Virus record (IMG/VR): IMGVR_UViG_3300019776_000329
Span: 1 to 32,955 of that record
Strand: one strand, 5' to 3'
Source: a virus
DNA: 32,955 nucleotides
This document shows positions 2,335 to 32,910 of this stretch, one piece after another (within the stretch, counting starts at the first letter, position 1; each line of letters begins with the position of its first letter). Below the pieces are notes generated by a model that saw only the letters and a list, made by a program, of their open reading frames with translations, was not told the origin of the DNA and ran no database searches. The translations under genes and the position numbers were made by a program.

Positions 2335-3318
2335 TTACGCCTCCACTAATGCCGCAGCGATTTCCTGCTTGCGGGTGTCTTTGATTGCCGTGAGCGCGGT
2401 GTAGTTTTCCTCGCCCAATTTCGTTTTCTTGCCGTTGGTCAACGCCCAAGCAGCGCGAAGCTGGTCGGCAGTATTTGCCGATAGCAAAGCCGACTTGATC
2501 TGATCCGCCATCGCCTTGCGCTCTTCCTCGGCCCTGCGCTCGTTCAGCGATGCGCGCTCAGCGTCGGCTGCGGCGGTGTCGTCGGGGTTGCCCATGACGG
2601 CCTGCGTGTCGCCGGAAAGGTACCGCATGATCGGCGCGAAGGTGTCGTAGGTCGGTTCCGCCACGGTTCGGCCGGTGAGGATGCCGCTGCGGTCCTTCTC
2701 GAAAAACACCTGGACCAAATACCCGCCGTCCTCGGTGCGTTCCGGGCAAAACCGCGCCAGCAGATGCGGCTCATACGGCGTCTCGCCCTCAGCCTTCATC
2801 TTCGTACCGATAACTTCCATCTGGCCGTCTTCGTCCTTGTCCATGACCACGCCCTCGCGCCCGCAGATGATGGCGTGAAAGTTGCCGTCGAGCAAAAGCG
2901 CCATCAGCTTTTTGTATGGCTTTTTGATGGCGCCCCAGGCGTGAATCGGGATCTGGCCATTGGCCATGCGCTTGCCGTCGTATGCGGCTTGCGCGGCCTC
3001 CCAGAGATGCGTAATGGAGTCAAGGACGATCACGCCGTGCGTTTTCGTGTCCAGTGATTCCACGGCGTCGATGACCTCGTAAATGGACCGCGTGTAAAGC
3101 GCGTCGAAGTCAAACGCGGCCGGATGCACTCGACGCTCTGCCACCGCCTGCGCGTAGAAATCCGTTCCGCGCTCCGTGTCCACATACGCCACGCGCTTGC
3201 CATCTCGCGCCGCTAATCCCTCTGCGACAAGTAGCGACGTGAATGTCTTGCCGCTCCCCTGTTTGCCGTAAAAGCCAGCCTTAAACCTGGCTTGTTGCGG
3301 CGATGCTTTCTTGAACAT
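2335..3318 (-). CDS. Sak4-type RecA-like ATPase (AAA_24), single-strand annealing/recombination
   Basis: This encodes 327 residues. A Walker A motif GKQGSGKT is at residues 18-25 and a Walker B strand GVIVLD at 95-100, followed by SITHLW. This is the layout of phage Sak4/AAA_24 proteins, a RecA/Rad51-core family that promotes single-strand annealing together with a phage SSB. The C-terminal 90 residues are charged and helical. The start has an excellent ribosome site (AAAGGAGAG) and lies 38 bases inside the upstream gene. The SSB-like gene follows directly. No separate recombinase, polymerase or helicase is in the window, so this is the main visible DNA-metabolism enzyme. Confidence 0.82.
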   Translation of the reverse strand: MFKKASPQQARFKAGFYGKQGSGKTFTSLLVAEGLAARDGKRVAYVDTERGTDFYAQAVAERRVHPAAFDFDALYTRSIYEVIDAVESLDTKTHGVIVLDSITHLWEAAQAAYDGKRMANGQIPIHAWGAIKKPYKKLMALLLDGNFHAIICGREGVVMDKDEDGQMEVIGTKMKAEGETPYEPHLLARFCPERTEDGGYLVQVFFEKDRSGILTGRTVAEPTYDTFAPIMRYLSGDTQAVMGNPDDTAAADAERASLNERRAEEERKAMADQIKSALLSANTADQLRAAWALTNGKKTKLGEENYTALTAIKDTRKQEIAAALVEA

Positions 3319-3964: not shown

Positions 3965-4236
3965 GCCGCACCGCCGATCAGCGACTTGACGACTCGCGCC
4001 GCGCGTCCGGCTCCGTGGTCTCGGTCGTAGCCCCACGGGTCGAACGTGTCTCCGCTGAAATCTGCCTTGATCGGTACGCCCATCGCGTAGTCAATGTAGT
4101 TGCACTCGGCCAACATCTGAGCGGCGCGCTGCTCGGTCAAATGACCCGCTGACAATATGCCCATTCCGAGCGGGGACCCTTGATTGACCAGCGCGGCGAG
4201 CAGCTTTGCTTTGTCGATTCCTTTGATGTCGATCAT
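3961..4236 (-). CDS. Hypothetical protein of the early operon
   Basis: This encodes 91 residues, with the start fixed by ATGA overlap with the upstream gene. The N-terminal half looks helical (DKAKLLAALVNQG, then EQRAAQMLAECNYIDY). The C-terminal half is richer in Gly, Asp and aromatics (DFSGDTFDPWGYDRDHG). I do not recognise it. There is no signal peptide, membrane span or metal motif. It lies between two other small genes of unknown function, ahead of the recombination genes. Confidence 0.6.
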   Translation of the reverse strand: MIDIKGIDKAKLLAALVNQGSPLGMGILSAGHLTEQRAAQMLAECNYIDYAMGVPIKADFSGDTFDPWGYDRDHGAGRAARVVKSLIGGAA

Positions 4237-4472
4237 GCCGCACCGCCCGTCTCAGCGATCAGCCCGCGCGCCTCGGTCATCAGCGCATCAAGCAGGCTGA
4301 AGTTCTCGCCACGGTGCGCCCGCTCAATCCGCGCCAGCAAATCGAACGCGGCGCCGGCCTTGTCCGCGCGCTTTAGCGCCCTCTCCATGCGCTCGCCCGC
4401 CATCCGCGCGCCCGTCGGCAAGGCGGCGGCGTTGTGCGGGTAACGGTGGGTGCCGTAAATGTTGTCTCTCAT
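4233..4472 (-). CDS. Hypothetical small helical protein
   Basis: This encodes 79 residues. I choose the ATG at 4472 because it is preceded by GAGAGGAGCAACC, a leader shared with the capsid and tail-tube genes of this phage. Longer alternatives run through the non-coding gap. The protein is mainly helical and charged (GERMERALKRADKAGAAFDL) with an acidic C-terminus. It follows a 121-base gap, so it may begin a translational sub-unit of the early operon. Function unknown. Confidence 0.6.
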   Translation of the reverse strand: MRDNIYGTHRYPHNAAALPTGARMAGERMERALKRADKAGAAFDLLARIERAHRGENFSLLDALMTEARGLIAETGGAA

Positions 4473-4498
4473 GGTTGCTCCTCTCTTGGTTTCTGACA

Positions 4499-4530
4499 CC
4501 CGGACCTGTGATATTCTTCGCAAGTCCGGG
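4499..4530. repeat. Inverted repeat (7-bp stem) in the gap upstream of the 4233-4472 gene
   Basis: CCCGGAC at 4499-4505 and GTCCGGG at 4524-4530 are perfect complements around an 18-base loop. They lie 27-58 bases upstream of the start codon at 4472. No T tract follows on either strand, so it is not a typical intrinsic terminator. It may be an RNA hairpin ahead of the ribosome site or a protein-binding site. The rest of the gap 4473-4593 shows nothing else I can name. Confidence 0.4.
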
Positions 4531-4593
4531 GTTGGGTTGCTCCGGCCCCGGTAGGCCGCGCGGCTCCGTCGGCAAAATGGACCGCGCGGCTGA

Positions 4594-4683
4594 TCATTGC
4601 CAAAACGCTGCAACAAACGCAGCCGCCACCGCCGTACCCACGGCGAGGCAAAGTGTGATGAACTGCCGCTCAAGTCTGCTCAC
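4594..4683 (-). CDS. 29-residue small membrane protein
   Basis: The frame starts with GTG at 4683-4681, overlapping the TGA of the upstream helix-turn-helix gene (GTGA), and ends at TGA 4594. The peptide begins MSRLERQF and continues with one hydrophobic span (ITLCLAVGTAVAAAFVAAFW). It is the third small membrane protein predicted in the early operon. The stop/start overlap and the sharp hydrophobic segment support it; the short length makes it uncertain. Confidence 0.5.
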   Translation of the reverse strand: MSRLERQFITLCLAVGTAVAAAFVAAFWQ

Positions 4684-4949
4684 GCGGCCCTCCGCTGCGC
4701 CACGTAGGGACGCGTAAGCAACGAGCGGCGGCCGTCCGAAAACCCCTGCCTGCGGGCGGCCTCCTTCTCGATCTCAAACTGTTCTAGCAGCACGTCCTCA
4801 ATGACGCGCTCTTGTACACCGTACTCGCGGGCCAGATGCCGATTCGTGGCGCCCATCTGCGCGCGAATTAGGATGCTGCGGCGCTCCGTGGGCGTGATCG
4901 GGCGGCTAACCCCAATGGCGCGAACGAGTTGCAAAATATTGTTGCTCAT
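4680..4949 (-). CDS. Helix-turn-helix protein, probable early regulator
   Basis: This encodes 89 residues with AGGAG eight bases before the ATG. The central part (about 22-58) reads as a helix-turn-helix: ERRSILIRAQMGATNRHLA followed by REYGVQERVIEDVLLEQ. It resembles the resolvase/transposase-type HTH, in which a first helix is followed by a short Gly-containing turn and a recognition helix. The C-terminus is strongly basic (GRRSLLTRPYVAQRRAA), which would suit DNA binding. It is the second gene of the leftward early operon, just after the RHH-like regulator. It could control early transcription or act in DNA metabolism. No close family was recognised. Confidence 0.6.
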   Translation of the reverse strand: MSNNILQLVRAIGVSRPITPTERRSILIRAQMGATNRHLAREYGVQERVIEDVLLEQFEIEKEAARRQGFSDGRRSLLTRPYVAQRRAA

Positions 4950-4960
4950 ATGCGGTACTC

Positions 4961-5161
4961 CTATTTACGATGGGCCATGCGTCCAATGATGAGCCTCTGT
5001 CGAATGGCGTCGGCTATCCACTCGCGCACTTCCTGCCCGAGTCTGGCGGCGTCGGCTTTTGCCATGCGGTAGTCATTCGGATGAACGTCTATCGAACGCT
5101 GAACCCACTCAGCCTCAACCTCGGCCGGTTGTGATTTAATCGTTGCTGGCATTGTTAGCAT
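4961..5161 (-). CDS. Ribbon-helix-helix-like small regulator, first gene of the leftward early operon
   Basis: This encodes 66 residues from ATG 5161. A longer frame beginning at TTG 5197 would start inside the operator, and ATG 5152 is a possible shorter start. Residues about 21-57 read as strand-helix-helix (RSIDVHPNDYRMAKADAARL, then QEVREWIADAIRQRL). This is the pattern of Arc/CopG-type repressors: a short beta strand, helix A, a turn with Gly, helix B. It lies directly downstream of a promoter whose spacer holds a 14-bp palindrome, so autoregulation is likely. Its neighbour across the operator has a similar fold. The RHH assignment comes from pattern only. Confidence 0.6.
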   Translation of the reverse strand: MLTMPATIKSQPAEVEAEWVQRSIDVHPNDYRMAKADAARLGQEVREWIADAIRQRLIIGRMAHRK

Positions 5162-5175
5162 TGCTCTCTGAAATG

Positions 5176-5204
5176 ATCTTAGGTGCAATTGCACCAAGGT
5201 GCAA
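5176..5204 (-). promoter_or_regulatory. Predicted leftward early promoter
   Basis: Reading the minus strand, a -35-like TTGCAC (5204-5199) is separated by exactly 17 bases from a -10-like TAAGAT (5181-5176). The start codon of the RHH-like gene at 5161 follows. The -35 match to a sigma-70 consensus is partial. The position ahead of the whole leftward operon and the operator in the spacer strengthen the call. Confidence 0.5.
5182..5204. promoter_or_regulatory. Palindromic operator with an extra half-site between divergent genes
   Basis: GGTGCAATTGCACC (5182-5195) is a perfect 14-bp palindrome. Two bases later the half-site GGTGCAA (5198-5204) recurs, making three tandem copies of a GGTGCA half-site. 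It sits between the divergent genes starting at 5161 (minus) and 5241 (plus) and inside the predicted leftward promoter spacer. RHH repressors bind such short tandem half-sites as dimers of dimers, so one or both flanking RHH-like products are the likely ligands. Binding is inferred. Confidence 0.65.
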
Positions 5205-5240
5205 GCGAAAACGTGCGCTAATCAAAAGAAAGTGCTTTAT

Positions 5241-5714
5241 ATGAAAAAGTATGGAATTCTTCTGTCGGCCGAGGAACACAAGGAGCTGAAGACGATCGCG
5301 GCGCAGCGTGGCGTGCTGATGCAGGACATCGCGCGGGACGCAGTGCTGGCGGCGATGCGTGTTCAGCCAGAGGCCACTCCCGCCGCAACGCCCGTGAGTT
5401 CAGCTTTACAGGCAGCGCATACGTTGGTAAAACAGTTAGAGATCCTTGAAGCCAGGACCAAAGATCTAGCCCGCGAGGTCCAGGACGCTGCCGATTACAT
5501 ACGAGGAATCATAAATGCCGCAACTGTTGATGATGCCGGATCTCCCACCCGAAGCGAGCGAATGGAAAGCGCAGTATTGCCAACGGTGGCTCCGCTTATT
5601 GCAAGCACAGGAAGAATTATTGTCGACGCAGCTCCGGGTGGTGGAAACGCAGCGAGAACTCGTCCGCGAGCTGCTGGACCGCAAAGAGTGATGCCCGGCC
5701 GCCGGTCTAGTTAG
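5241..5714 (+). CDS. Plus-strand RHH-like DNA-binding protein, divergent regulator
   Basis: This is the main plus-strand gene in the window: 157 residues from ATG 5241 (a GTG start at 5199 inside the operator is less likely). Residues 1-36 (MKKYGILLSAEEHKELKTIA, then QRGVLMQDIARDAVL) form a strand-helix-helix pattern like ribbon-helix-helix regulators. A Pro/Ala linker and a helical, coiled-coil-like segment follow (TLVKQLEILEARTKDLAREV). The last 66 residues overlap another frame with much better codon bias, so the C-terminus as read here may be non-native. A possible extended -10 (TGcGCTAAT, 5214-5222) lies upstream. The ribosome site is weak. Confidence 0.65.
   Translation: MKKYGILLSAEEHKELKTIAAQRGVLMQDIARDAVLAAMRVQPEATPAATPVSSALQAAHTLVKQLEILEARTKDLAREVQDAADYIRGIINAATVDDAGSPTRSERMESAVLPTVAPLIASTGRIIVDAAPGGGNAARTRPRAAGPQRVMPGRRSS
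5515..5691 (+). CDS. Small coiled-coil protein overlapping the regulator gene in the +1 frame
   Basis: This encodes 58 residues from ATG 5515, preceded by GAGGA seven bases upstream. The frame has G or C in most third codon positions, whereas the overlapping frame of the 5241-5714 gene is A/T-rich at third positions here. That favours this frame as the coding one. The product has a short N-terminal loop and then a long amphipathic helix (RLLQAQEELLSTQLRVVETQ). It may be a separate protein, or the natural C-terminus of the regulator joined by a frameshift. Function unknown. Confidence 0.6.
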   Translation: MPQLLMMPDLPPEASEWKAQYCQRWLRLLQAQEELLSTQLRVVETQRELVRELLDRKE

Positions 5715-5727
5715 GCCCGGAGACACG

Positions 5728-5760
5728 AAAAGCCCCGCCACCCGAAAGGGCAGCGGGGCT
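5728..5760 (-). terminator. Intrinsic terminator at the end of the long late operon
   Basis: On the minus strand AGCCCCGC (5760-5753) pairs with GCGGGGCT (5738-5731), and a smaller CCC/GGG stem with a TTTC loop stacks inside. TTTT (5731-5728) closes the hairpin end. It lies 29 bases past the stop of the last late gene (5789) and between convergent genes. It is therefore the expected end of the late transcript, and may also block plus-strand transcripts from the regulator gene. Confidence 0.75.
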
Positions 5761-5788
5761 TATGTAATCTTGGGGCGGTATCGTTACA

Positions 5789-6130
5789 CTATCGAACCGT
5801 TATATCGGGTTCAACCGTGAGGGTGTCGTAGTACGCCGTGTGAATCGCGCCCGCGTCGGTTTCCAGTTCCAGATCGACGGCGAGTTTCACCGGGAACGAC
5901 GCGAGGCCGGAGGTATCGGCCGGGTCCAGCGTGATCGTCGCCAGCCCGCCCGCTGCGTTCGTGACGGTGATGCCGTCACCGATGGACTTGGAAAACAGGA
6001 CCGGCGCGCCGGGCGACTTGCGCGCGGTGAAGTAGAGCCCGGCCGCGTTGTCGAGGTCGTAGGCAATGCCGTTTTGCGTCACGGCGACGCTGAAGCTCTT
6101 AGTGTTGCCCCGGTACATGGTGAGTGACAT
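5789..6130 (-). CDS. BppU N-terminal-like baseplate/fibre protein
   Basis: This encodes 113 residues, starting by ATGA overlap with the repeat protein gene. The sequence fits a small beta-sandwich domain found widely in phage baseplate upper proteins. It opens with MYRGNTKSFSVAVTQNG, continues with LYFTARKSPGAPVLFSKS, then GDGITVTNAAGGLATITLDP, and ends with a strand giving DTLTVEP. In BppU-type proteins this fold forms the N-terminal part that binds the tail. Here the protein is only that domain. It could be a fibre attachment or chaperone-like partner of the 975-residue protein. It is the last gene of the late operon. Confidence 0.65.
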   Translation of the reverse strand: MSLTMYRGNTKSFSVAVTQNGIAYDLDNAAGLYFTARKSPGAPVLFSKSIGDGITVTNAAGGLATITLDPADTSGLASFPVKLAVDLELETDAGAIHTAYYDTLTVEPDITVR

Positions 6131-9057
6131 TAGATTCCCTCGATTTCCGCGACGATATCCGTCGCTGTGATAGTTGCCGTTGGTGCCGCCGCTGCCGTCA
6201 GCGTGGCCGATGGCGCAGCCGCGGCGGTGATTGCCGCCGAGATGGTGCCGGTTGCCGTCAGCGCCGCTGTGATGACGTAGACGGGCGTGACCACCGCCGC
6301 CCAGCCCGCGCCCGTTGGGATGCCAGCCGTGAGCCGATCTAGGACCGACGCCGCATCGGCGACGCTGATGTTGGCCAGTGTGCCCAGTGCCAGCGATTCC
6401 GCTACCGTCGCGGCGTCGGCGATGTAGATGACGTATGCGCCGCCCGTGGCCGTGAACAGGTCCACAAATTCAGCCGCGGTTGCCGCGTCGGAAACCGAGA
6501 CGTAGGCGAGGACATCCGCCGCGGTCCATTCCGTCGCGCTCGCCGTGTCGGAGACGATGGCGAACGTCAGCACCTCGGCTACCGCCGATTCCGTAACCGT
6601 CGCCGTATCCGTGGCAGATACCTGCGTCTGAACGGCCGGCGTTGCGCTCTCCGTGACCGTGGCTGCGTCGGATACCGCGGCCTCGGTGTTGACTGTGGCC
6701 GAAGTGTTTTCGCTCGCCGTGGCCGCGTCGGTGGCCGTTAGCGTGGTCTGAACTTCGGCCGCTTGGTACTCGGCGACCGCAGCATCGTCTGCGACGGACG
6801 GCGAGACACTTACGGCGTTTTCCGTGGCCTCCGCGACCGTTGCCGCGTCGCTGACTGAGGCGCTGGTGTTGAGCTGCGCGGATGCCGCTTCCGTGGCCGT
6901 GGCCGCGTCCGTTACGCTCGGCTGGACCTGGACGGCGTTGCTGACGGATTCGGTCGCGGTGGCGGTATCCGTGGCCGAGGCGCTGGTGTTGACCGCAAGC
7001 GTAGCTGACTCAGTGGTAACCGAGTCGTCGTGAACGATCACATCACCGAATGAGCTTGTCTCGATCGTCAGCGCCGCGTTTTCCGTGCCCGTCGTGGCGT
7101 CGTTGACATCGACGGAGGTGTTGACGGCAGACGGCGCCGCTTCCGTTGCGCTGGAGGCGTCGGAGATGGAGAGCGAGGTGTTGACTTCCGCGGCGCTGGA
7201 TTCCGTGACCGTGGTGGCGTCCGCTGCATCGACGGCTGTCTGAATGGATGCCTCGGCCGATTCGCTGGCGGTTGCTGTGTCCTCGGTCGAAACAAACGAC
7301 ACCATCATCGGCGTCACGTCTTCGGAAGTTGCCGCGCTGTCGGAGGTGTTGACCAGCGACACCAGCATGGGCGTCGCCGATTCGGTCACAGTGGCGGCAT
7401 CGCTGGTGTCCACCAGCGAAACCATCATCGGCGTGACGGATTCCGTGACCGCTACCGTGTCCGCTACTGACGCCGACGTGTTCAGCGTGCTGGCGGTGTT
7501 CTCAGTGACGGTCGCCGCGTCACTAACGCTAGCCGTCGTATTGACTTGCGCCGATGCGTTCTCAGCCGCGGTTGCGGCGTCGGTGACGGAAACCGCCGTC
7601 TGAATCGTGGGCGTGGCCGCTTCGGTGACCGCTACGGTGTCCGTCGCGCTAGCGTTGGTGTTGACTTGCCGGGCGAAGTCTTCCGCCACCGTCGCCGCAT
7701 CGAACGGCGCGACGTTGGACGCGCTGACGACGGACAGGTTTTCCGCGCTCGTCGCTGCGTCGGACGTGCTAACGAAGCTGACAATCGAAGGTGTCGCGGA
7801 TTCGGCGACGGTGGCGGCGTCAGATACGCTGCGCTCGGTGTTGACCTGCCGGGTGGTGGACTCGGCGACACTGACGGAATCGGACGTGCTGACGGTCTTA
7901 ACATCGCCGCTGATGACGGACAGCGTGACGGATTCGGCGGTGGTGATTGTATCGCTGACTGACGGCGCTGGGGGCGGCGTGTAGTCAACGTAGATTGCCA
8001 TAAAATCTACGTTGACGAAGCGATTAGTGCTGCCCGTTTTGCGCACCGTCATCGTCGGAGCGGTGCCGAGGGTGACGGACGGCGAGCCGGTGACCGGGCC
8101 AAAATGAGTCACCCAGCCGGACGGGAACGTGCCGACGACCGTAGCGGTGTCGTTACCATAATCAAACGTACCGGAGCCTGCGGCCTGCGCTGGATTCGAT
8201 GCAATCCAGACATCGCCCGCCTTCGTGCCAGTGCTGACCTCTTCGCCATCGTTGCAGATCGCCATGACGGCGTTGACGGTAGAACCGGACGGCACCCCGG
8301 CCGCCGTATAGGTCTGCATCGTTGGCGTGTAGTCCAAATTTGAACCGGTCGCGCCGTTTTTGATCTTTGTGCCGTCCGTGCTGGCAGCTGCGCCAGTCGG
8401 CGGCCGATTGTTCACGCCCTCAAAAATATTGGTCGTACCGCCGCCGCCGTTGGTCCATGAGTTAAGCGCGCCCGGGTCAGCAGTTGGAAGGAGGCATAAC
8501 TGCTTACCGAGCCGCGAGTACCCAGTAGACGAAGAAAGGGATGTATCGCAAACGACTAAATCGTCAAAATATAAATTGGTCGTGACAGAACTTGAAATTA
8601 CGCCTACATTGAAATTAGTTGTCGCGCTAAGGCTGGTAGTCGATCTTGCCCACTCGGTGCCATCGACGTACAAGACAGAATCGGTTCCGACTGTGGCGAC
8701 CTCGATAGAATGCCACTCGCCGTCAGCCGACAGAGCGTTCGTGCTGGTCGCGGCGACAATTTTTAACGTGCCGTCCGTATTCAGCGTTAGGTTTTGCGAC
8801 AATTGCGCAATGAGGCAGTTTAGGCTCGGCAGTGAGCCAATGCGAAGCCAAAAGCGCGCATTTAGGCAAAAGCTGGCAAGTGAGCCGCCTGCTGCTCGCT
8901 TGCTGAAGGTTAAATACGCAGCGCTGCCGCTGGTGTTGCACTGAAGCGCATAGGTCCCCGAACGCACAGTGGTTGACTGTATCGTCGGAGAGCCTGTGAC
9001 GGTTTGCGCCTGCCCGGTCGCGCCAAGCTCAAAACCAGTCAGCAGCGTAATTGCCAT
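6130..9057 (-). CDS. Giant repeat-containing tail fibre/adhesin-like protein
   Basis: This encodes 975 residues. Residues about 1-230 look like a LamG/concanavalin-type beta-jelly domain (WLRIGSLPSLNCLIAQLSQN, then EWHSIEVATVGTDSVLYVDG and FDDLVVCDTS). A further beta-rich domain runs to about 360 and includes a DYTPPPAP linker. About 26 repeats of some 20 residues follow (consensus SDAATVTESATPxVNTSxSV), then a hydrophobic Ala/Thr C-terminus. The Ser/Thr-rich repeats suggest an elongated stalk that could be glycosylated; glycosyltransferases are encoded nearby. There is no signal peptide. The gene is ATGA-coupled to the BppU-like gene. Receptor binding or host-surface attachment is the likely role. 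Confidence 0.6.
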   Translation of the reverse strand: MAITLLTGFELGATGQAQTVTGSPTIQSTTVRSGTYALQCNTSGSAAYLTFSKRAAGGSLASFCLNARFWLRIGSLPSLNCLIAQLSQNLTLNTDGTLKIVAATSTNALSADGEWHSIEVATVGTDSVLYVDGTEWARSTTSLSATTNFNVGVISSSVTTNLYFDDLVVCDTSLSSSTGYSRLGKQLCLLPTADPGALNSWTNGGGGTTNIFEGVNNRPPTGAAASTDGTKIKNGATGSNLDYTPTMQTYTAAGVPSGSTVNAVMAICNDGEEVSTGTKAGDVWIASNPAQAAGSGTFDYGNDTATVVGTFPSGWVTHFGPVTGSPSVTLGTAPTMTVRKTGSTNRFVNVDFMAIYVDYTPPPAPSVSDTITTAESVTLSVISGDVKTVSTSDSVSVAESTTRQVNTERSVSDAATVAESATPSIVSFVSTSDAATSAENLSVVSASNVAPFDAATVAEDFARQVNTNASATDTVAVTEAATPTIQTAVSVTDAATAAENASAQVNTTASVSDAATVTENTASTLNTSASVADTVAVTESVTPMMVSLVDTSDAATVTESATPMLVSLVNTSDSAATSEDVTPMMVSFVSTEDTATASESAEASIQTAVDAADATTVTESSAAEVNTSLSISDASSATEAAPSAVNTSVDVNDATTGTENAALTIETSSFGDVIVHDDSVTTESATLAVNTSASATDTATATESVSNAVQVQPSVTDAATATEAASAQLNTSASVSDAATVAEATENAVSVSPSVADDAAVAEYQAAEVQTTLTATDAATASENTSATVNTEAAVSDAATVTESATPAVQTQVSATDTATVTESAVAEVLTFAIVSDTASATEWTAADVLAYVSVSDAATAAEFVDLFTATGGAYVIYIADAATVAESLALGTLANISVADAASVLDRLTAGIPTGAGWAAVVTPVYVITAALTATGTISAAITAAAAPSATLTAAAAPTATITATDIVAEIEGI
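6330..7960 (-). repeat. Array of about 26 coding repeats of 57-75 bp
   Basis: Within the 975-residue gene each unit encodes D-[AT]-x-[AT]-x-[TA]-E-[SN] followed by a Val/Thr/Ser stretch of about 12 residues. Units such as SDAATVTESATPMLVSLVNT are close copies; others have diverged. Most are 60 bp, and two (near 7030 and 6430) are longer. The array is in frame throughout, so units could be gained or lost by recombination without breaking the gene. Confidence 0.85.
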
Positions 9058-12499: not shown

Positions 12500-13350
12500 G
12501 CAGGCACCGCCGTTAAATGGAACTCGCGGTCGTTGCCAGGGCGAGACATCTTGATTCTGAGCCACCAGCCGCCCGCAGGACGCGCGGAGCGCCCGCGCTC
12601 GACGTGCCAGCCGCCCGCGCCTTCCTCGTGCTTGTAGGCGCCGCCACGGAGGAAAAGCTGTGTACGCTTCTCGACGCGGCCCTGATGGTTGATGGACATT
12701 ACCACGTTCTCGTCCATGTTGCGGCGGTGGATGTGCCCGCTGTAATAAACATCCGCGTGATACTGGCTGCGTGTGCGATTGTTGTCAATCATCCCGCGCG
12801 TGACTTCGCCGCCGCCGCCGTAGCCGTGGTGGAAGTGTAGATCCCAGGAGTAGGCGCCGCTTCCGTTGCCGCAGGAGATGCGGACGAATCCCGTGAACCC
12901 CATCAGGACAGCCGGCGAGCCCGCGCGCCGCAGGCGGTCAACCAAGCGCTCCGTGAGGTGCGTCTGGTGGTGCTGGAGAATCGACGTTTCGTGGTTCCCG
13001 TCGCTGATGACGGCAATGCTTTTGGCGTAGGGCTCGTAGAGGCGCTGGTGGAAGTCCATCAGGCGGTCTAGGTACCCGTTTCCGCGCAACTCCGGCCGCA
13101 ACTGCTCCTGATCGGAGCGGCGGTCCCACTTGCCTTGCATCGCGCAAAACGTGTCGCCGAATTTCAGAATAGGCGCGTTACGCTCGGCGGCTTGTTCGTG
13201 ATGCGCGCGAATCAGCCCGAGGTCGCTGTGTGCATTGTCGGCGTGCTCGTCGGACATGAGCAGCACCCACCGCTCCTCCTCGACGCGTTTGATCTCGGGG
13301 AGCCTAAGTACGGCCACCATCGGGGATTTGCGCTCGATGGTCCAGCTCAT
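12496..13350 (-). CDS. Calcineurin-like metallophosphoesterase
   Basis: This encodes 284 residues. The five metal-binding blocks of the family are in order: SDEHADN (D34, H36), GDTF (65-68), GNHE (118-121), HFHHG (172-176) and GHIHR (205-209). Family members hydrolyse phosphodiesters or phosphomonoesters with two bound metals. In phages their substrate may be nucleic acid, cyclic nucleotides or cell-wall components. The protein has no signal peptide. The start overlaps the upstream stop by ATGA, and the end is coupled to the HELLH gene. It is complete, with all catalytic residues present. Confidence 0.85.
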   Translation of the reverse strand: MSWTIERKSPMVAVLRLPEIKRVEEERWVLLMSDEHADNAHSDLGLIRAHHEQAAERNAPILKFGDTFCAMQGKWDRRSDQEQLRPELRGNGYLDRLMDFHQRLYEPYAKSIAVISDGNHETSILQHHQTHLTERLVDRLRRAGSPAVLMGFTGFVRISCGNGSGAYSWDLHFHHGYGGGGEVTRGMIDNNRTRSQYHADVYYSGHIHRRNMDENVVMSINHQGRVEKRTQLFLRGGAYKHEEGAGGWHVERGRSARPAGGWWLRIKMSRPGNDREFHLTAVPA

Positions 13351-24637: not shown

Positions 24638-25255
24638 TCAGCAAAGCGTGTAGCCTGCCGGTAGCTCGGTGCGGTCAACCGGCTTCCAGCAGGCGTCTAT
24701 AACTCGTTTCGATGTGTTCCCTGGATGGCATGAGGCCACGCACAGGCCGCGGCCGTCGATGCCGGTTATCCGGCCTCGGGCGGCTTGGACGAACGCGCCG
24801 TCGTATCCTACCTGCATGGCCCGGAACGGGTTCCGCTGCCAGAAATCGCGTGTGAAAAGCAGCGAGTTTCCAAGTAGCTCACCCGGGCGCGCGGTGTACT
24901 CGTAGACGTGGGCGCCGTTGTCGAAGTGGATGCGGTTAAAGCCGGTGACGTGGGCGCTGCCGAGGGCGGCTAGTTGCGTTTCTAGGCGCTTCGGCCCGTA
25001 CCAATCATCGTCGTCCCAGATGGCGAGATAATCGCCCGTCGCGTGGCTGGCGCATTCGTTGACCAGTAACCCCAGGCACGCTTTTCCGAGCGCTCTGACG
25101 TACTTGACGCGTGGATCGTTGGGTATCAGGTCTTCGACTGACTGCCCGTTATCCAGCACGATCAGTTCGGCGGGTACGGTCTGCGCGGCAAAGCACGCAA
25201 ACGCCCGCGGCAGCCACTCGCGCCGGTTCCGCGTCGGCATGATGCAGGAAATCAT
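24638..25255 (-). CDS. Family 2 glycosyltransferase inside the tail module
   Basis: This encodes 205 residues, starting by ATGA overlap with the tail terminator gene. Family features are clear: an N-terminal strand-loop (ISCIMPTRNRREWLPRAFAC), VPAELIVLDNGQS, the LGLLVNECASHATGDYLAIW helix-strand, and the metal-binding run DDDDW at 81-85. Then comes a long acceptor region (FNRIHFDNG...). It is complete. Such enzymes add sugars to proteins or surface glycans. Its place between tail terminator and tail tube is unusual and suggests virion-protein glycosylation. Confidence 0.8.
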   Translation of the reverse strand: MISCIMPTRNRREWLPRAFACFAAQTVPAELIVLDNGQSVEDLIPNDPRVKYVRALGKACLGLLVNECASHATGDYLAIWDDDDWYGPKRLETQLAALGSAHVTGFNRIHFDNGAHVYEYTARPGELLGNSLLFTRDFWQRNPFRAMQVGYDGAFVQAARGRITGIDGRGLCVASCHPGNTSKRVIDACWKPVDRTELPAGYTLC

Positions 25256-32505: not shown

Positions 32506-32910
32506 CTATAACCCTTTGGCCCGCTGAATAAACGCCAGCGTCGCGCTGGTAGCGGCCGGCTTCTTCGTGTCCTTGATCCCTGCCCGCTGGCGATTCCTAG
32601 GTCCAATGTTCAACTGGCTGCGGAGTTCGTCGATCTGGCGGCCCCAGGCGAGCTTGGTTCGGCCGTCCGTTTCGGTCTGCCGGGAGAGCATCGCGTCAGC
32701 GAGTTCGGCGTACTGGTCGGCGTCGATCTGGCGGATAGCCACGCCCGCGGCGCGGTTCTCGGCGACCAAGCGCTTGAAGAGCTTTAGGCGGTCGGATTTG
32801 CACCACGCGGGCGGCGTGATGTCTTCCTGGATAGGTTCGGGGATGATCCCCCCGTTTTCTGCGATGCCGCGCCGACTATCGGGTTGGCGTTGGAAGCCTC
32901 GAAGGGCCAT
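32506..32910 (-). CDS. Terminase small subunit (P27-like)
   Basis: This encodes 134 residues. It is small, helical and basic, with a Pro-rich N-terminus (EPIQEDITPPAWCKSDRLKL), helices FKRLVAENRAAGVAIRQIDA and DQYAELADAMLSRQ, and a C-terminal basic tail. The composition and the position two genes before the large subunit fit P27-type small terminases, which recognise the packaging site. A T-rich stretch lies upstream at the window edge (32911-32955), where no ribosome site is obvious. Confidence 0.7.
   Translation of the reverse strand: MALRGFQRQPDSRRGIAENGGIIPEPIQEDITPPAWCKSDRLKLFKRLVAENRAAGVAIRQIDADQYAELADAMLSRQTETDGRTKLAWGRQIDELRSQLNIGPRNRQRAGIKDTKKPAATSATLAFIQRAKGL

Follow-up and report, generated by a model that had tools for sequence, protein, structure and literature searches.

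When a short word is repeated across a presumed promoter between two divergent genes, do the products of both genes compete for it as a switch, or does one of them use it to turn down its own operon? We examined this for a phage locus in which a plus-strand gene (P0002, 5241-5714) and a minus-strand gene (P0001, 4961-5161) flank three copies of the word GGTGCAA. The window, meaning the whole stretch of DNA that was analysed, is a single IMG/VR virus record (IMGVR_UViG_3300019776_000329) of 32,955 bases, which is without a terminal repeat and possibly incomplete.

Gene layout and the repeated word in the presumed early promoter

Between 32.9 and 5.8 kb the minus strand carries terminase, capsid and tail genes, which are followed in order by a terminator-like hairpin, P0002 on the plus strand, the putative operator, and P0001 with the remainder of the early operon on the minus strand. 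The hairpin, at 5727-5764 on the minus strand, has an energy of -30.3 kcal/mol (z -6.9) and is followed by UUUU; it stands between P0002 and the late operon, which it ends. P0001, a small RHH-like protein and the presumed autorepressor, is encoded at the head of the early operon; the second gene (4680-4949, minus strand) has a weakly HTH/DNA-binding-like product (HTH_28 0.11, phrog_664 0.0025), the product of the third (4233-4673, minus strand) carries an HRYP.NAAALP motif, and a Sak4/RecA-like ATPase is encoded at 2335-3318 (minus strand). Among the late genes, a 975-aa ORF (6130-9057, minus strand) has many repeat units of the SDAATVAES type and is presumably tail-fibre or adhesin-like, and the product of 24638-25255 (minus strand), within the tail/head-completion gene cluster, has by eye a glycosyltransferase-like N-terminus (MISCIMPTRNRREWLPRAFACFAAQ).

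Read on the minus strand, a -35-like hexamer TTGCAC (5204-5199), a 17-base spacer (5198-5182) and a -10-like hexamer TAAGAT (5181-5176) are contiguous. The spacer consists of a perfect 14-bp palindrome, GGTGCAATTGCACC (5182-5195), plus AAG, so that two inverted half-sites occupy 14 of the 17 spacer bases. A third half-site, GGTGCAA at 5198-5204, is the complement of the -35-like hexamer plus one base, and pairs with 5189-5195 to give a second dyad, TTGCACC-AA-GGTGCAA. An initial annotation had placed a palindrome and an extra GGTGCAA between the divergent genes, with the palindrome filling the 17-base spacer; both statements are correct, and the fit is exact to within the three additional bases.

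The palindrome by itself means little, because three perfect palindromes of at least 14 bp are present in the window and 3.96 are expected from shuffles; a perfect 14-bp palindrome within the 76-bp gap arises in 89 of 20,000 shuffles. The triplet is non-random: any 7-mer occurring three times in that gap, on either strand, was seen in 15 of 20,000 shuffles, and the GGTGCAA copies form the only compact inverted-plus-direct (+-+) word cluster in the window. A fourth GGTGCAA, at 32798 inside the small-terminase gene, looks like a coding coincidence, since the same gene of two relatives (G004 and G009) has the same word. A search of IMG/VR for the palindrome together with the third half-site, as an exact pattern, gave no match. 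The promoter hexamers match 7 of 12 sigma-70 consensus bases, which is no better than random 90-bp pieces, and a stricter promoter scanner found no promoter. Because the hexamers are weak and at background level, the presumed early promoter is believable only through its geometry, which is kept before the corresponding gene in relatives.

The two proteins that flank the putative operator

The start of P0001 must be the ATG at 5161 (66 aa) or the ATG at 5152 (63 aa), the TTG at 5197 given in the list of open reading frames being discarded because it would fall inside the operator. By eye, the segment ...RSIDV-HPNDYRMAKADAARLG-QEVREWIADAIRQRL fits the strand-helix-helix pattern of RHH proteins. 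The sub-threshold family matches of P0001 are RHH antitoxins (ParD 0.054, VapB30 0.053), with nothing above any cut-off, and its score against a small, hand-written RHH profile is poor, being reached by 81 of 1,000 shuffles. The single-sequence AlphaFold model is a single long helix that lacks the RHH turn, and Foldseek matches of this model are meaningless, as expected from a poor model. Neither a pattern scan of IMG/VR nor tblastn against INPHARED returned relatives of P0001, and direct searches with P0001 and P0002 in related records gave nothing close. One match to P0001 in G004 (35%, E 0.005) was rejected, as its minus-strand position at 13.6 kb is well away from the early operon of that phage near 26 kb.

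P0002 combines an RHH-like N-terminus (about residues 1-41) with a predicted long helix (52-95). Its single-sequence model places helices at 10-23 and 27-41 with low confidence, and RHH proteins (CopG, including 1B01 and 1EA4; ParG, VapB and TacA) make up most of the Foldseek matches, every one of which has E > 1. Weak sub-threshold profile matches point to ParD (0.038) and ORF56 (0.039), and the score against the same hand-written RHH profile was reached by none of 1,000 shuffles. The N-terminus of P0002 thus looks RHH-like, and the pattern that the initial annotation had read in both products is indeed present in both, better supported in P0002 than in P0001. Codon statistics favour the RHH part of P0002 and are negative in the distal 200 bases. 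Within the distal half of P0002, codon statistics are better for a 58-aa ORF in another frame (5515-5691, plus strand), which follows a GAGGA ribosome site and is either a true overlap or the sign of a frameshift in P0002. No homologue of P0002 was found in the IMG/VR pattern scan, by tblastn in INPHARED or in the relatives searched, comparison of P0002 with P0001 detected no sequence similarity, and no plausible plus-strand promoter was seen before P0002.

The corresponding locus in related phages

A terminase scan of IMG/VR gave at least 77 loci, the best of them on a phage contig, G001, with 87% identity; a genome collection searched with the terminase gave no relative. Gene-order comparison with G001 identified a homologue of 4680-4949 (31% identity; none of 5,000 shuffles reaches the score), and the gene just before it encodes a protein, ...EFVKRSIPITDQDFRLLHIMRAFRGETVGQCVQRILREAY, that aligns with P0001 (BLASTP E = 6e-5 in one comparison; again 0 of 5,000 shuffles). 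This homologue of P0001 therefore has the same position as in the window, directly before the homologue of the next gene; its match to ParD (0.18) is sub-threshold. Searches with the G001 homologue of P0001 and with the next gene returned only G001 among the matches listed.

In the 41.8 kb of G001, the word AAGTCTGA has just three copies, all of them at 13159-13198, a clustering matched for 7-mers by 2 of 20,000 shuffles. The promoter geometry there is TTGCAT, 17 bases and TACCAT, ending six bases before a GTG start, and two of the AAGTCTGA copies tile across the 17-base spacer. The triplet layout is drawn from two phages only, the window and G001. The DNA-facing strand residues, read by eye from a CopG alignment, are Q21, S23 and D25 in P0001, K22, S24 and P26 in the G001 protein, and K3, G5 and L7 in P0002. 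Such differences would be in keeping with P0001 and its G001 homologue reading different words, and would speak against one word common to P0001 and P0002. In the slot that P0002 occupies in the window, flanked by the late terminator and the early promoter, G001 carries a small membrane-protein ORF that is unrelated to P0002 and runs opposite to the early operon.

Four further relatives (G004, G009, G015 and G024) have, at the start of their early operon and before the 4233-4673 homologue, a gene of different sequence that shows an RHH-like pattern and that we call A2-type; it is carried by at least 37 IMG/VR loci. A2-type proteins have no detectable sequence similarity to P0001, and whether they are distant homologues or unrelated replacements cannot be told by sequence. 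In most A2-type phages for which upstream DNA was read, TTGACC or TTGACG is followed after ~17 bases by a TA...T hexamer; because this ends ~six bases before the GTG, it suggests that A2-type transcripts are nearly leaderless. No triple word was present upstream of the A2-type gene in the relatives scanned. Of other threefold word clusters in relatives, the one examined (L067) is not at an RHH gene. A2-type phages keep a TGCTATATAGC palindrome ~60 bp further upstream, with the extended form TGCTATATAGCrGTTTGTT, which one locus (L134) retains although much of the remaining gap has changed. This element may be the A2-type operator or an upstream promoter. Across L110-L142, a conserved TGCTATATAGC(A/G)GTTTGTT precedes the RHH-like gene by about 65-80 bp. 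The operator layout of the window is thus common to G001 and not to the whole phage group. Elsewhere in the relatives, iteron-like arrays of the words TTCCCCAAAG and GGAATGTTGAATGT occur at about 35.7-36.0 kb in G009 (L095), about 17.8-18.0 kb in G024 (L096) and about 22.4-22.6 kb in G028 (L103), and are possibly replication origins.

In the A2-type relatives, the gap corresponding to the P0002 slot is too short for a gene. Because the slot is variable in relatives and P0002 has no plausible promoter, P0002 is treated here as a lineage-specific passenger between late terminator and early promoter, with a putative link to the operator; it may be affected incidentally by the same operator. Additionally, searches for integrase and resolvase families (PF00589, PF00239), which do detect their families in control genomes, found none in the window or in ten relatives linked through terminase or RHH, records that may be incomplete. 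Three records whose only link to the window is the Sak4-like gene encode an integrase. No CI/Cro-like (HTH_3) gene was found in the window record, and an HTH_3 protein is present in the early operons of G004 and G015. The lack of integrase and resolvase matches in the window and the ten relatives makes a lysogeny-type switch unlikely at this locus.

Proposed autorepression, its alternatives and known systems

In our reading, 5182-5204 is probably the operator of the early promoter, to which P0001, as a small RHH-type repressor, would bind. P0001 would most likely act as an autorepressor of the early operon through promoter occlusion, because its G001 homologue has the same place and a different triplet again fills a 17-base spacer there. 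In early infection, host RNA polymerase would engage TTGCAC-17-TAAGAT and transcribe P0001 together with the replication and recombination genes. As P0001 builds up, its dimers would settle on the GGTGCAA half-sites, covering both spacer copies and the copy over the -35 hexamer, and would occlude the promoter, giving negative autoregulation of the kind seen with SvtR, CopG or Arc. The half-sites with their spacer fit, the gene position and promoter geometry common to relatives and the different word of the G001 triplet are read directly from the DNA; the fold of P0001, its binding, the repression and its timing are inferred.

The initial annotation had envisaged a compact switch for the early operon without a classical CI/Cro pair, with both proteins recognising the same half-sites and competing for them. 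Part of this stands, namely an RHH-like regulator, half-sites in the promoter and the lack of HTH_3, and the two-protein part is unsupported. A choice between early transcription and an alternative state, made by P0001 and P0002 as competing RHH proteins, would agree with the divergent layout about a single operator and with the RHH-like N-terminus of P0002, for which the Foldseek matches and the profile score speak. A two-repressor switch consists of divergent regulators with their own promoters and common operators, whereas P0002 has no recognisable promoter and was not found in any relative, its slot there being taken by a membrane-protein ORF or empty. The two proteins are also without sequence similarity, their DNA-contact strand residues differ by eye (Q-S-D vs K-G-L), and neither integrase nor resolvase was found, all of which makes competition of this kind very unlikely. 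We give equally little credence to a broader scenario, in which lineages of apparently virulent phages retained an RHH autorepressor as the opening gene of the early operon while its DNA word was swapped wholesale (GGTGCAA vs AAGTCTGA), giving heteroimmune-like groups without lysogeny, and a second, unrelated RHH protein was recruited on the opposite side to compete for the operator. It is somewhat easier to imagine, and still improbable, that P0002 alone, or the 4680-4949 product, binds the half-sites, with P0001 being, for example, antitoxin-like or RNA-polymerase-binding. The RHH profile score is better for P0002 than for P0001, and the 4680-4949 product has its weak DNA-binding matches and a homologue in G001. 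However, G001 has a similar triplet without P0002, and although the homologues of P0001 and 4680-4949 occur there together, only the P0001 coding sequence abuts the operator.

Two other explanations involve no phage protein. The repeats could be chance or a non-regulatory palindrome to which nothing binds, given that about four 14-bp palindromes are expected per window and that the promoter score is at background; the rarity of a triple 7-mer in the gap, and an independent triplet at the same place in a second phage, leave this reading with slim prospects. A host regulator such as LexA could bind the dyad TTGCACC-AA-GGTGCAA, which would put the early operon under host SOS control. The dyad is an exact fit to TGCNC-N4-GTGCA, which we take to be the Fibrobacter LexA box, a box not confirmed in the literature searched. 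LexA-controlled phages do exist, for example GIL01 (PMC4551915). Against such control, bacterial genomes carrying TTGCACCNNGGTGCAA are scattered over many phyla among the matches listed, a LexA relative is encoded in none of the 80 genome stretches with TTGCACCNNGGTGCAA among those matches, and G001, in spite of its closely related terminase, carries a different word at the corresponding place; we regard it as extremely unlikely. Among the matches listed (L152-L231), TTGCACCNNGGTGCAA is over-represented in Comamonas genomes, where it is perhaps a dispersed repeat element.

Autorepression by P0001 would be of an ordinary kind, as early control by a repressor on half-sites in a promoter is already known for phages. 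What the comparison adds is a likely early repressor and its operator for an uncultivated phage group known only from metagenomes, together with the suggestion that the DNA word changes between phage lineages. The window, G001 and the A2-type phages form a set in which regulator can be compared with promoter. If the word truly follows the protein, this set would be a natural series for change of DNA specificity in RHH proteins, and would also bear on why an apparently virulent phage would turn its own early operon down.

Several known systems resemble the proposed one. Arc and Mnt of phage P22 are small RHH repressors that act on short half-sites in a phage promoter spacer, as proposed for P0001, and belong to the immunity-I region of a temperate phage, whereas no integrase was found in the window and P0001 has no significant match to either. 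CopG/RepA of plasmid pLS1 and ORF56 of pRN1 are autorepressors of replication operons with an operator overlapping the promoter. Their role is in plasmid copy control, not in the early control of a phage, and it is P0002, not P0001, that matches them, non-significantly, with CopG structures among its Foldseek matches. ParD and VapB antitoxins (PF09386; 4XGQ), which commonly autorepress, are the best sub-threshold matches of both proteins, but the scores are under cut-off and no toxin gene was recognised next to P0001 or P0002. Among viral RHH proteins, for which autorepression via promoter occlusion has been reviewed (PMC5569661), SvtR of SIRV1 and the other archaeal-virus repressors F55 and AvtR work with archaeal promoters and hosts, and no sequence match to the window was found for them; SvtR also acts on further viral promoters, whereas the window shows a single operator locus. 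They are nevertheless small viral RHH proteins that occlude their own promoters, and F55, like the presumed repressor of the window, is associated with repeated words at early promoters (PMC5569661).
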